From Verrucomicrobiota bacterium (lineage in GTDB: Bacteria > Verrucomicrobiota > Verrucomicrobiia > Limisphaerales > UBA8199): a DNA stretch of 46,185 nt. The stretch's first letter is position 1; the number at the start of each line of letters is the position of its first letter. Positions 1,063-6,079 of this stretch are shown here, piece by piece. The position numbers and the translations under genes were made by a program. Under the pieces are notes generated by a model that was given only the letters and a program-made list of their open reading frames with translations, made no database searches and was not told where the DNA came from. The stretch covers positions 1 to 46,185 of the forward strand of contig JARKQH010000425.1 of assembly GCA_029974925.1 (NCBI GenBank), given 5' to 3'.

Positions 1063-2382
1063 ATGTCCAAGCACCGTCCAAGCAACCCCCTCCCCCCCGC
1101 AGCTCCTGGCCCGGCCAGGCGTCCTCACTCGGTTTGGGAACGGCGGGTTTTTCGCAACTGCTTCACCCGCCGCGGGAAGACCTGCCGCCTGAAAAACTGG
1201 TCCTTCAAGGTCCAGTACCAGGGCCGGCGCCGGACCTTTTCGCTCGCCGGACGGACCCGGGCGGAGGCGGCGTTGGAGGCGCAACAGATTTACGAGGCAA
1301 TCGTCAATGAGGGTTGGCAGGCTGCCTTGGAGCTGCAGCGGCTGCGACGGCGGGGTGGCGCGGCGGTTCGAGCCGACGCCGGCGCGGTCCCGTTGCTCAA
1401 AAGCGACCTGGCTTATTGGGAACACCGCCTCATCCAGCGGCGCTATCGCGAGGCGCGCCTGAGGGCGGGCGCGGAGTTCTCCGCCCGAATCGAGCATGAA
1501 GGAACGCACGCTTACTTTCCGCTGGGGACGGACGATCCCAAGGGGGCGGCGGCAACGGCGCGCGAGATTTATCAAACGGTGGTGGGCAGCGGTTGGGCCG
1601 CCGCGTTTACACGATTCGAGCGGGAGCTGACCCTGGCGATTTCATGGTCGGACAACCCGCTGGCCATCACTTATGCGACGCTGTTCACCTTTCTCACGAC
1701 GCCGGCGCCCGCCGCGCCGCCGGCCGGCGACCGGCGGCTCAAACCGCTCCTCGTGCTCGAACCCGATGTCACGGCCCACTCGTGCCTGCGCTATTGGCTG
1801 GACCGCCAGCCGGGCTTCACCTGCCGCGCCGTGCACCGCACCGCCGCCGAAGCCCTTGAGGCCATCAAACTGGCGCCGGACGCCCCACCCGTGCTGGTGC
1901 TGCTGAATCGCCTCGCCCCGGATGCCGCCCCATTGGTCGAGGCGCTTCGGTTGCGCTGGCCGGAGCTGCCCGTGTTCCCTTACCGCCTCCACGAGGACAG
2001 CGACCAAATCTTCATCTCCACCTCGGGGGTCAGCGGCGGCTACATCTTTCGCCGGCGGCTGCCCACCGCCCTGTTTGACCCCTTGCAGCCCATCGCGGCG
2101 GTGCCTTCCTTGACCGCCGCGGACGCCGCCCGCCGCATTCGCAACTATTTCCAGAGCTTCTTCGGAGACCCCCCTGCCGCGACGCCGCCGTTGGCGCCGG
2201 TGGCCTTGACCAACCGCGAACAGGAGGTCCTCAACCTCATCAGCCGGGGATGTCTCGACAAGGAAATCGCCCATCTCCTGGACATCAGCATTTGGACCGT
2301 CCACAACCACCTGAAGAACATCTATGACAAGCTGGGGGTTCACAATCGCACCGAGGCGGTGCTCAAGTACCTGCAACGATAG
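1063..2382 (+). CDS. LuxR-family response-regulator-like transcription factor with duplicated N-terminal module
   Basis: The C-terminal 60 residues (about 380-439) are a classic GerE/LuxR helix-turn-helix: LTNREQEVLNLISRG, then KEIAHLLDISIWTVHNHLKN and KLGVHNRTEAV. Residues about 226-345 resemble a receiver domain (LLVLEPDVTAHSCLRYWLD ... EDSDQIF ... GGYIFRRRLP). The usual phospho-accepting Asp is replaced by Asn in VLLNRLAP and the conserved Lys by Arg, so phosphorylation control is doubtful. The N-terminus holds two similar modules of about 50 residues (about 45-95 and 135-185), each with an aromatic/basic strand, an alanine-rich helix ending in IY, and a GW. They recall integrase arm-type DNA-binding domains, which is inference. 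ATG 1063 was chosen because the frame upstream of it, open from 646, reads as non-coding Pro/Arg-rich sequence. The gene sits between two paralogous LamG genes and is followed after 61 bases by the second. Confidence 0.88.
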   Translation: MSKHRPSNPLPPAAPGPARRPHSVWERRVFRNCFTRRGKTCRLKNWSFKVQYQGRRRTFSLAGRTRAEAALEAQQIYEAIVNEGWQAALELQRLRRRGGAAVRADAGAVPLLKSDLAYWEHRLIQRRYREARLRAGAEFSARIEHEGTHAYFPLGTDDPKGAAATAREIYQTVVGSGWAAAFTRFERELTLAISWSDNPLAITYATLFTFLTTPAPAAPPAGDRRLKPLLVLEPDVTAHSCLRYWLDRQPGFTCRAVHRTAAEALEAIKLAPDAPPVLVLLNRLAPDAAPLVEALRLRWPELPVFPYRLHEDSDQIFISTSGVSGGYIFRRRLPTALFDPLQPIAAVPSLTAADAARRIRNYFQSFFGDPPAATPPLAPVALTNREQEVLNLISRGCLDKEIAHLLDISIWTVHNHLKNIYDKLGVHNRTEAVLKYLQR

Positions 2383-2443
2383 CCGAAATTAGCCAGTATT
2401 CCGTGTTTGACCCCCCGTGCGGGCCTGTCAAGCTGAAGGCAAG

Positions 2444-5400
2444 ATGGAAACCTTTGTCCGAACACCGCGACTCGACCGCCCTCCCTTCAGCCGTGCCTCG
2501 TCCTGGCGCCGCTCCAAAGGGGCATTCTCCCGGCGCAACCCCGGAATCCTCCTGTGCCTCGCCTGCCTTTTTGCCGCCGGCCGGCCCGCCCCCGCGGCCG
2601 TCACCGGCCAGTGGGACTTTGACAACGGCGACCTGTCGGCCACCGTGGGCGCGCCGCTCCAATACCGCGGCAGCGCGGCCGCCCAGACCCAGTTCGGAAC
2701 GACCACGACGTTCGGCATCGCCAACATCGGCGGCCAGGTGGCTCAGGTAATGCGTTTCCCCGCCGCCTCGCCCGCCGACGGCTACGTCATGCTGCATGGC
2801 GCCGCGCCCAACGGCGGCGGCGCCATGGTCAATCAATATACCCTCATCCTCGACGTGCTTTTTCCCTCCGCCAGCGGTGGCTTCCGCGCCTTCTGGCAGA
2901 CCGACACCAACAACACCACCGACGCCGACCTCTTTGTCAACGGCGCCAACGGCATCGGCATCAGCAGCGCCTACCACGGCAATCTCTCGGCCGATGGCTG
3001 GCACCGGGTCGCCTTCACCCTCGACCTGACCCGCCGCGAGCTGGGCAAATATATTGATGGCACCAACGTGCTCACCGCGCCCGTGGGCGAATCGCCCCTG
3101 GGCACCAATCTCGTGCAGTACCTCAGCGCCACCAGCGGCGGCGTGGACCAACGTTGGGCGCTCGGACCGGCCGCGCTGTTGTTCACGGACGAAGACGGCG
3201 AGACGGGGGTGGGCTACGTCAACAGCATTCAATTCCATGACCGCGTCCTGTCCGCGGCCGAGATTGCCGCCCTGGGCGCTCCCTCGGCCAGCGGCATTCC
3301 CGGCGGCACCAACACCTCGCCGGCCGGGGTGGTCCAGTATGATTTCAACGGGAACCTGAACGCCTCGACCCCCGGCCTGCCGCTTGAACCGGGCGCGGCC
3401 CTGCCCGCCGCGGCGCCCGGCGTGGTGTTCACCAACGCAACCATCGGCGGGCAGACGGCGCAAGTGGCCGCGTTCACTCGCGGCACGTTTTTCCGCATGG
3501 TCCACGGCCTCGGCGCCAATGGCGGTGGCAATTACCTCAACCAATACACGCTGCTGATGGATGTCATGTTCCCTTCGCGCCCCACCGGCTGGGCGGCGTT
3601 GTGGCAGACCAATCCCGGCAATGCCAACGACGGCGACTGGTTCATCAACCCGGGCGGCGGCCTGGGCATCTCCGGCGTGTACGGCGGCAATGTGCCGGAC
3701 GGCGCCTGGAACCGCCTCGCGCTGGTCGTGGATTCCGTGGCGGGCTCTTTCACCAGCTACCTCAACGGTGTGCCCGTGCAGCAAATCACCGGCGTCACCC
3801 TCGATGGCCGTTGGTCGCTCGACACCTCCGCTCTCCTGTTCGCCGACGAAAACCAGGAGAACGCCGCCGGCTACATCAACAGCGTCCAGTTGCGCGCCGC
3901 CGCGCTCGCGGCGGATGAAATCGCCGCGCTCGGCGGCCCCCAGGCGGCCGGCATCCCCCTGCCGGCGGCGCCGTCGGACCTGCGGGTGACCGGCCCCAAC
4001 GGCGGCGAGCTGCTGCAAGCCGGCACCGCCCAGGCCGTTTCCTGGGGGGCGAACAATCCCTCGGGCTGGGTTCAAATTGACCTGCTGCTCGGGGATGCGC
4101 TTTATCGCACTCTCGGCCAGGCCCTGATGCGCCAGAGCAACTTTTTGTGGAATATTGACCCGTTGCTCGGCGACACCAACACCTATCGCATTCGCCTCAC
4201 CTCGCTGAGTTTCCCCGGCCTGCAGGATGTCTCCGACGCCACCTTCACCGTCACCGGCTCGGGAGTGCCCCCCAACCTCAATTATGGCCGGCCTCTCCAA
4301 CTGAATGGCGGATTCGAGTCGCTGCTCGCCCATTGGGAGGTCATCCGCGGCAACCCCTCGACCCTCACCAGCGCCCAGGGCAAGGGCGCCCCCTTCGCCG
4401 GAACCCGCTTCCTTCATGGCGGCCTCAGCGCCACCGGCGACACGGTCGTGCGCCAGGACATTGACCTGTTGGCGGCGGGATTCAACCCGGCGGACCTCGA
4501 CGGCGGCGCGGCGGTTGAAGCCGAGGCCTGGTTGCGGAACGCCAATCCCCTCGGCAGTTTTGACGACCAGGTCTATTTGCGCGTCGCCTGCCTCGACGCG
4601 GCGCGGCAGGAGCTGGCGGCCGTTCGCACCATGGTGGCCGGCAATAACACATGGGTCCGGCGCACGGCCACCGGCTTGATACCCCCCGGCACCCGCGCCC
4701 TGCGCCTGGAGGTTGTGGGCCGGCATCGCCGCGACGCGGATAACGACTCCATGGCCGACGAGGTCAGTGTGCGGATTCAACGAGCCTGGCCCCTGGTGAA
4801 CCCCCAGATCACCAAGCTGCCCATGCTTCAGGATTACCGGCCGGATGCCATGACGCTGCTCTGGGAAACCGACGGCAACCTCGCGCTCCATGGCGTGGAC
4901 TGGGGCCGGACCAACGTCCAGGAGAACACCCTCACGCAAATCGAAACCGTGATGATTGACAGCACGCATTTTGTCCACCGGGCCACCCTCACCGGCCTGG
5001 CACCCGAAACCCCGTACGGCTATCGCGTGCGCAGCGGCAGTGCCACCTCCCCCACCTTCTCCTTCCGCACCGCGCCCCGCCGCGACACTCCCTTCTCGGT
5101 CGCCTGGTGGGGCGACAGCCAGGTCAACCCCGGCGTCCTGCAGCAACTGGTGTCTCACATGGTCGCCCAGGGCGTGGATTGGATGGGCGTGGCCGGCGAC
5201 CTCGCCAGCAACGGCAATTCGCTGGCCGACTGGCATAATTACTGGTTCCGACCGCTCGAGTTCCAAAACATCGCCCAGACCCGGCCCGCCCTCTTCGCCC
5301 GCGGCAACCACGACGGCGAATTCCCCTTCAGCTATGCTTACAGCGCCCTGCCCGGCAATGAGGCCTGGTTCGCCTTTGACTACGGCAACTCCCGCTTCAT

Positions 5401-6079
5401 CTTCCTTGACACCGAGGCCTCGACCGGCGCGGTCCCCGAACAATACGCCTGGCTCACCAACGAACTGGCCCGGCCCGAGACCCAAAACGCCGCCTTCCGC
5501 GTCGTGTGTTTCCACCGGCTCCCGTATGCCAACCTGTGGAACGGCGGCGGCTACACCGGCGAAACCTGGGTGCGCAACGATTGGGTCCCGCTCTTCCAAC
5601 AATATCATGTTGACCTCGTCATCAACGGCCACGCCCACAACTACAACCGCGGCGTCACCAACGGCGTGGTTTACCTCGTCGTGGGCGGCGGCGGCGGCGC
5701 CCTCGACACCGAGCGCGTCGCTTACTGGCCGCTCTTTACCGTCGAATACTCCCTTTATCATTACGGCCTCATGGCCGTCCGCGGCCCCATGCTCACCTGG
5801 GACGTCTTCAGCAACACCGGCCAGAGGCTTGACAGCTTCACTCTCTCCAGCCGGCTCCCCCGCCTCGAATGGAAAAACTCTCCCGTGCCCGGCGGGAACC
5901 TGCTCCTCGCCCTGAGCGGCAGACCGGAGGAAACCTACATCCTCGAACAGTCCTCCAACCTGGCCGCCTGGACCCCCTGGGCGACCAACACCCTCCCCGC
6001 CACCGGACCGCCCACCGTCACCAACTCCATTCCCGTCACGGCCAATCAGGGCTACTTCCGCGCCCGCCTCGCTCCCTGA
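2444..6079 (+). CDS. Secreted LamG / purple-acid-phosphatase-like metallophosphoesterase
   Basis: A 1211-residue exported protein. After an extended signal peptide (hydrophobic core ILLCLACLFAAG) come two LamG-like domains (about 53-290 and 296-510), an Ig-like domain starting near VTGPNGGE, and a jelly-roll-like region starting at LQLNGGFES. A fibronectin-III-like domain follows, then a calcineurin-type phosphoesterase at about 885-1120. Metal-binding motifs are visible: GDSQ (about 890), GDLASNG (about 918), GNHD (about 955), CFHR (about 1024) and GHAHNYNRG (about 1062). The fibronectin-plus-phosphoesterase order is that of purple acid phosphatases. The last 75 residues (SSNLAAWTPWATNTL ... 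YFRARLAP) are a C-terminal module also seen in the beta-helix protein at 32764-35868. ATG 2444 was chosen over GTG 2417 because AAGG lies five bases upstream of it. It probably releases phosphate from organic phosphate outside the cell; the substrate is unknown. Confidence 0.9.
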   Translation: METFVRTPRLDRPPFSRASSWRRSKGAFSRRNPGILLCLACLFAAGRPAPAAVTGQWDFDNGDLSATVGAPLQYRGSAAAQTQFGTTTTFGIANIGGQVAQVMRFPAASPADGYVMLHGAAPNGGGAMVNQYTLILDVLFPSASGGFRAFWQTDTNNTTDADLFVNGANGIGISSAYHGNLSADGWHRVAFTLDLTRRELGKYIDGTNVLTAPVGESPLGTNLVQYLSATSGGVDQRWALGPAALLFTDEDGETGVGYVNSIQFHDRVLSAAEIAALGAPSASGIPGGTNTSPAGVVQYDFNGNLNASTPGLPLEPGAALPAAAPGVVFTNATIGGQTAQVAAFTRGTFFRMVHGLGANGGGNYLNQYTLLMDVMFPSRPTGWAALWQTNPGNANDGDWFINPGGGLGISGVYGGNVPDGAWNRLALVVDSVAGSFTSYLNGVPVQQITGVTLDGRWSLDTSALLFADENQENAAGYINSVQLRAAALAADEIAALGGPQAAGIPLPAAPSDLRVTGPNGGELLQAGTAQAVSWGANNPSGWVQIDLLLGDALYRTLGQALMRQSNFLWNIDPLLGDTNTYRIRLTSLSFPGLQDVSDATFTVTGSGVPPNLNYGRPLQLNGGFESLLAHWEVIRGNPSTLTSAQGKGAPFAGTRFLHGGLSATGDTVVRQDIDLLAAGFNPADLDGGAAVEAEAWLRNANPLGSFDDQVYLRVACLDAARQELAAVRTMVAGNNTWVRRTATGLIPPGTRALRLEVVGRHRRDADNDSMADEVSVRIQRAWPLVNPQITKLPMLQDYRPDAMTLLWETDGNLALHGVDWGRTNVQENTLTQIETVMIDSTHFVHRATLTGLAPETPYGYRVRSGSATSPTFSFRTAPRRDTPFSVAWWGDSQVNPGVLQQLVSHMVAQGVDWMGVAGDLASNGNSLADWHNYWFRPLEFQNIAQTRPALFARGNHDGEFPFSYAYSALPGNEAWFAFDYGNSRFIFLDTEASTGAVPEQYAWLTNELARPETQNAAFRVVCFHRLPYANLWNGGGYTGETWVRNDWVPLFQQYHVDLVINGHAHNYNRGVTNGVVYLVVGGGGGALDTERVAYWPLFTVEYSLYHYGLMAVRGPMLTWDVFSNTGQRLDSFTLSSRLPRLEWKNSPVPGGNLLLALSGRPEETYILEQSSNLAAWTPWATNTLPATGPPTVTNSIPVTANQGYFRARLAP

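Follow-up and report, generated by a model that had tools for sequence, protein, structure and literature searches.

A single gene in the window, as we term the whole 46,185-nucleotide stretch analysed, encodes a regulator composed of two arm-like modules, a receiver domain that lacks its phospho-acceptor aspartate, and a GerE domain. We consider it probable that this orphan regulator of the NarL/FixJ type, which appears to be phosphorylation-incompetent, carries an integrase arm captured together with its cognate site, and that the site, to which we infer that the arm binds, likely serves as an autoregulatory operator. If this is correct, the protein represents a bacterial transcription factor derived from a captured integrase arm domain and its cognate operator and conserved across many families of one Verrucomicrobiota order. 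No published integrase arm fused to a receiver or to a LuxR protein was found in the literature listings, which reached little of the subscription literature.

Domain layout and distribution of the regulator

The gene occupies positions 1063 to 2382 on the forward strand (ATG at 1063, stop codon ending at 2382) and encodes 439 amino acids. A homology search returned 21 relatives that match the protein, most of them over its full length, and the reading frame is therefore taken to be a real gene. The first-pass annotation had called it a LuxR regulator, which is borne out by the GerE domain (LuxR-type helix-turn-helix) at residues 381 to 434 (2203–2364; Pfam E value 1.6e-16). At E ≤ 1, Pfam matches in the window protein were limited to GerE and HTH_10, with GerE alone above the cut-off; neither a Phage_integrase catalytic domain nor the autoinducer-binding domain of quorum-sensing LuxR proteins was detected at this threshold, and no Pfam arm family matched. 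The possibility that the modules belong to a known sensor domain, raised in the same annotation, gained nothing from searches of the domain and profile kind, in which the regulator matched no such domain, and a sequence search of solved structures also gave no match.

Module 1, which is putatively DNA-binding, covers residues 24 to 96 (1132–1350), and module 2, a degenerate copy, covers residues 117 to 196 (1411–1650). Profile-profile comparison of the two scored 75.4 (P = 4.8e-15), where 100 column shuffles reached at most 17.6; the relatedness of the modules noted at first reading thus stands, but their size, put there at about 50 residues, is really about 70 to 80. Module 2 lacks most of the basic residues, with a mean net charge of +1.7 versus +9.8 for module 1. 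A module 1 profile built from 22 regulators, with no recombinases included, scored 91, 88, 67, and 43 bits on four tyrosine recombinases, at their N-termini, and the module 2 profile scored 63, 51, 49, and 21 bits on them. Three of these four proteins pass the Pfam Phage_integrase model, and the fourth (L014) is a 321-amino-acid ORF without a match. These scores vindicate the label "integrase-arm-like" and support, at the level of sequence, the homology of module 1 to the arm domain of tyrosine recombinases (integrases). The N-terminal structure model (pLDDT 88) has the strand and helix order expected of an arm domain, in which a three-stranded sheet packs on a helix. In comparison with the PDB, the arm domains of the lambda Int, HPI, and HAI7 integrases, which the regulator module may resemble in predicted fold, appeared at ranks 1 (3ju0), 2 (3rmp), 5 (1kjk), and 6 (3jtz), all as weak matches (Z 4.7 to 3.6), and Foldseek with this model returned no match at E ≤ 0.001. 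The weak fold matches of module 2 in the PDB include dsRNA-binding domains, and for the full-length model, receiver and GerE matches alone were listed. The tyrosine-recombinase arms of Verrucomicrobiota resemble the regulator module in sequence and have a tandem direct repeat beside the gene; in contrast to these proteins, the regulator has no catalytic part, and its module is duplicated and fused to a receiver and a GerE domain.

The domain at approximately residues 226 to 345 (1738–2097) had been described as a degenerate receiver in which VLLNRLAP replaces the usual Asp, and alignment agrees with this description. Asn282 (codon 1906–1908) occupies the phospho-Asp site, which is Asn in 54 of 57 aligned members, Ser in 2, Thr in 1, and Asp in none. 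Within the same genome, the nearest paralogue (L002) has a canonical receiver (VEDD, LMD, LTVYDD, GYLLK) whose phospho-Asp aligns with Asn282, and no Asp was regained in the alignment against it. Of the 57 members, one has Asp at the second acidic site, 29 have Ser or Thr at the Thr site, and 18 have Lys at the Lys site; the window protein has Arg at both the Thr and the Lys site. The predicted structure aligns to receiver-GerE structures. The best reading of these residues is that the receiver would be phosphorylation-incompetent as far as the usual chemistry goes, and the loss of Asp is old and Asn retained, as the site is so consistently Asn and never Asp. This makes it a clear case of a receiver giving up phosphorylation and then fixing Asn at the phospho-Asp site. 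The regulator shares its GerE domain with NarL/FixJ response regulators but has Asn in place of their phosphorylatable Asp, and a receiver without phospho-Asp is what it has in common with Aspartate-less or pseudo-receiver regulators (RitR, PMC4395418; review, PMC12632262). In these sources, Asn is the second most frequent substitute, at 16%; here, in contrast, it is nearly fixed, with an integrase-type module in front and a tandem site of the gene's own.

A profile search found the module in 102 of 293 genomes of one Verrucomicrobiota order, where its carriers include 59 GerE regulators (58 and the window gene) and 50 recombinases, counts that omit L074, L076, and L092 (receiver match, no GerE match) and eight ORFs without a second domain. 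All 50 recombinases contain a single module; of the 58 regulators besides the window gene, 52 contain two. Of 387 genomes surveyed across the phylum, 19 gave a match; both modules were matched in G000 and G053 alone, both within the same order, and the remaining matching genomes had one module each, the eight examined all being recombinases. Module 1 and the repeat described below are kept across many families of the order, in a tally that omits L012 (broken) and L026 (ambiguous letters). L012 (G006:C315) is a two-module regulator split between two frames that overlap; its genome also has recombinase L016, with the same TCCAAG tandem site. With regard to a phage origin, no relative of the regulator was found among viral_contigs. 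ARAGORN identified whole tRNAs at just 3 of the 50 integrase loci; several integrase 5' regions resemble the end of a tRNA by eye.

A tandem repeat at regulator and recombinase genes

The start of the regulator gene carries a tandem direct repeat which, like its equivalent at recombinase genes, is absent from the first-pass annotation. Copy 1 (TCCAAG, 1066–1071) falls on codons 2 and 3, and copy 2 (TCCAAG, 1077–1082) follows 11 bp on in another frame, both on the forward strand. A TCCAAG pair with at most 2 mismatches is present at the start codon in 52 of 53 two-module regulators, 40 of them perfect, with the copies 11 bp apart in 36 and 10 bp apart in 16. L021, a two-module regulator, is without the site, and L089 has one weak copy. 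In 28 regulators it is copy 1 that sits at the start codon and in 22 it is copy 2, with neither there in 2; the DNA of the repeat thus stays constant while its register to the protein varies, and in 22 regulators copy 1 precedes the start codon. In the 23 genes of the MSKxRP type, the two copies fall in different reading frames, and the codons within the repeat are AAG (23/23), CGT (23/23), CCA (23/23), and TCC (17/18), compared with 12% for CGT, 12% for CCA, and 25% for TCC elsewhere in these genes; p values for this bias are nominal, as the 23 genes are related. The repeat is constrained at the DNA level. In some regulator genes of the L165 type, such as L082 (G165:C20) and L058 (G138:C150), the open frame extends far 5' of the start used here, up to 774 aa, so that annotating the longest frame would put the start in the wrong place and conceal the repeat.

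A promoter-like pair, predicted by consensus match only, lies on the same strand (TTGACA, 1025–1030; N17; TACCCA, 1048–1053), and copy 1 begins 12 bp past it; the mRNA would therefore be almost leaderless, with the repeat over its first ~25 bases. Scanning 12 marine genomes for the site with at most 2 mismatches yielded 26 hits, 24 at regulator genes (two different ones in G194) and 2 elsewhere (G013:C18, G104:C61), and a scan of 13 family genomes with at most 3 mismatches produced 8, of which 3 were at regulator genes. No regulon sharing the site was found in either scan, and the location of the site is essentially exclusive to the regulator gene. Marine genomes have a second tandem pair 78–79 bp upstream of the first. 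At L024–L037, L039, and L040, which have this upstream pair, the region is shared with a divergent secreted-protein gene, and in many of them an inverted repeat, CCGCTTGGCCAAGCGG, lies between the pairs. A gene for a SKICH/Reelin-like protein is divergent at 15 of 16 marine loci, and the 16th (L029) has only 394 bp upstream. The conserved neighbours of the regulators are large secreted proteins, from which we draw no functional claim, as no background rate is computable. In the window, the downstream gene (2417–6079, forward strand) encodes a protein of 1220 aa that combines two LamG-type domains with a purple acid phosphatase part, and LamG proteins also flank relatives L015, L020, L021, and L022.

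For a comparison with the recombinases, tandem 9-mers with a period of 9–13 were scored in the 200 nt before the module. Perfect repeats (9/9) were found in 36 of 50 recombinases and 31 of 59 regulators, and repeats of at least 8/9 in 42 and 44, respectively, compared with 0.3–0.4% and 7–8% in dinucleotide shuffles and ~1% and ~13% in within-gene windows. Eight further recombinases from outside the order gave 6 perfect repeats, 1 at 8/9, and 1 without. The recombinase repeat lies 30 to 200 nt 5' of the module, not always on the start codon, and its units vary (GTGGCCAAG, GTGGAACAG, CCGGACAG, GTGGCAGC, and others). Site likeness increases with arm likeness among recombinases (Spearman 0.29; 4 of 2000 permutations as high), and L013 and L016, the recombinases that adjoin the regulators on the module tree (which omits 13 near-identical marine regulators), have TCCAAG as the regulators do. 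At two further places, L178 (G006:C563:21092-21111) and L179 (G007:C635:1335-1354), TGTCCAAGAAGTGTCCAAGC occurs with no intact integrase or regulator beside it in the ORF list; the frame across it at L178 resembles the first residues of an integrase (VQEVSK) and is perhaps the remnant of a lost element.

Nine intact regulators show one module. L105, with module 1 alone, keeps the TCCAAG pair with one mismatch, and none of the eight with module 2 alone (L131, L141, L147, L150, L236, L238, L243, and L244) has an intact pair, copy 2 having decayed beside an intact copy 1 in L236 and L147 showing chance-level likenesses. In these proteins the site goes with module 1, and module 2 can do without it. 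We set aside a one-to-one filling of the tandem site by the two modules, as single-module recombinases already have tandem sites. Also against such filling are the module 2-only regulators, which lack an intact pair, and the module 2 residue equivalent to Lys49, which is Arg in 43 of 53 regulators, while both DNA copies usually have T.

Covariation of residue 49 with base X of the repeat

On strand beta-2 (WSVKIQ) of module 1, residue 49 (Lys49 in the window protein, codon 1207–1209) tracks base X of the repeat. Among 53 regulators, 50 have Lys there and three have Arg (L015, L083, and L090), each of these three with a GCCAAG copy. In 58 recombinases the residue is Arg in 51, Lys in 3 (L013, L016, and L189), Gln in 3, and Ala in 1; the three with Lys have GTGTCC, and most of those with Arg have G. 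For scoring, repeat units were aligned blind to base X, and 88 of 111 genes were scored, with L085 misplaced. The combinations were R-GG in 30, R-other in 5, K-TT in 2, Q-CC in 3, and A-GT in 1 for the recombinases, and K-TT in 43, K-other in 1 (the misplaced site), and R with one G copy in 3 for the regulators. The pairing of residue 49 with base 6 ranked 1 of 730 column pairs over all genes and 4 of 720 in recombinases alone. As V48 and I50 alternate with S47, K49, and Q51, residue 49 would face away from the helices.

The rule R-G, K-T, Q-C was fixed in writing ahead of a search focused on another family. Among the 24 strictly new recombinases (L187–L194 were known before the rule), 11 of 14 scorable ones followed it (R-G 6/8, K-T 1/1, Q-C 4/5), with a Fisher p of 0.0097 for R versus the rest in these 14, counted by hand before the test and at a score cut-off of 8 that was not set beforehand. 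At a cut-off of 12, the whole out-of-sample set gave R-G in 8/8 and G with a non-R residue in 0/5. L204 (family f147) has Lys49 and AAGTGTCCAAG twice. Exceptions to the code are R with C or A in L124, L192, L233, L246, L228, and one copy of L146, and Q-A in L237. On the tree, the residue switched between K and R 7 times, at least 3 of them on supported branches, and the site changes alongside; three independent switches on supported branches are too few for significance. The tree-test agreement of 71/71 is flattering, as six site readings were set by hand (L013, L023, L058, L067, L069, and L085), rows L193, L191, L146, and L124 were removed by hand, the 13 near-identical marine regulators were omitted, and only T and G bases were admitted, which excluded the counterexample L192. 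With one residue, one base, and natural switches in both recombinases and regulators, the specificity of an arm domain becomes directly testable, and a route would open to predicting the arm-type sites of uncharacterised mobile elements.

A proposed autoregulatory circuit and its alternatives

We propose that capture from a tyrosine-recombinase gene would have brought the 5' end of that gene along, the tandem direct repeat being the module's arm-type site. We infer the direction of capture, from integrase to regulator, because the arm is widespread in recombinases within and beyond the order and the tandem site is general there. Module 1, a three-stranded sheet with helices, would sit in the major groove at each AAGTG-X-CCAAG copy, where residue 49 on beta-2 would read base X, Lys with T and Arg with G. 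Set one helical turn (10 or 11 bp) apart, the two copies would most likely be filled by module 1 of two protomers, since single-module integrases already have tandem sites. Module 1 on both copies would block the regulator's own promoter, and because the repeat spans both the start codon and the predicted start of transcription, the regulator should on binding repress transcription of its own gene. PMC2951348 describes IntS as negatively regulating intS of KplE1 through sites that overlap the promoter, and reports that the promoter overlaps attL in 61.5% of tRNA-associated integrase genes. The likeness lies in a protein whose sites overlap its own promoter beside the gene start, here by prediction; the product in our case is a regulator rather than a recombinase, and its repression would be expected by analogy. 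A regulator that acquired the 5' end of a self-repressing integrase gene would have been under its own control from the outset. For the degenerate module 2 and the receiver, the probable role is to keep the protein together or to respond to a signal other than phosphate, and GerE would act on other promoters. As no phosphate would be taken by the usual chemistry, the protein level set by the feedback loop may be the main control, and a change in expression level is given as one way of controlling a pseudo-receiver protein in PMC12632262.

The repeat might instead act in the mRNA, with the regulator protein or the ribosome recognising the 5' end of a near-leaderless transcript in translational feedback. 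Its position on the start codon and the dsRNA-binding domains among the weak fold matches of module 2 would fit, but the recombinase repeat, 30 to 200 nt before the module, is not always at the start codon, the second marine pair lies 78–79 bp upstream, and the top fold matches of module 1 are DNA-binding arm domains, which together render this improbable. We regard it as distinctly improbable that GerE or another protein binds the repeat while the arm-like modules make protein contacts only. GerE is a proven DNA-binding type and module 2 has shed most of its basic residues; however, recombinases without GerE have an equivalent repeat, all eight regulators that kept the receiver and GerE but lost module 1 are without an intact pair, and it is residue 49 of module 1 that tracks base X.

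The remaining two alternatives deny the repeat any role of its own. That it does no more than encode a conserved N-terminal peptide, MSKxRPS, is scarcely credible even though the MSK-x-RP peptide is conserved in 23 genes, given the invariant CGT and CCA codons, the two copies in different frames, and the 22 regulators in which copy 1 precedes the start codon. The loss of one module in several members might suggest an ordinary atypical response regulator whose N-terminal modules and repeat are functionless relics of a gene fusion, but module 1 and the repeat are kept across many families, with constraint at the DNA level, and we consider this account very improbable. The proposed captured arm with its operator also has a parallel in the ALOG plant transcription factors, which, according to PMC3537659, were made from a tyrosine-recombinase DNA-binding domain; in their case it is another domain, an XerC/D-like N-terminal one with a zinc ribbon, in plants, and the accessible part of that paper describes no captured cognate site.

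A broader reading, which we hold to be doubtful, is that the arm module would read its site by a simple code at residue 49 (K-T, R-G, Q-C) and that regulators and mobile elements would control each other in trans. Such a code would make arm-type sites predictable from protein sequence. Mutual control in trans is conceivable because recombinases L013, L016, L189, and L204 bear the regulators' TCCAAG tandem site; if it occurs, the host regulator could work against incoming integrase genes, either as a captured repressor or as an immunity factor. Recombinases L132, L136, L142, L149, and L211 have Glu in place of Arg56 (GRE rather than GRR) and CCGGACAG repeats that are not of the GTGG type, which may mark a second code position.
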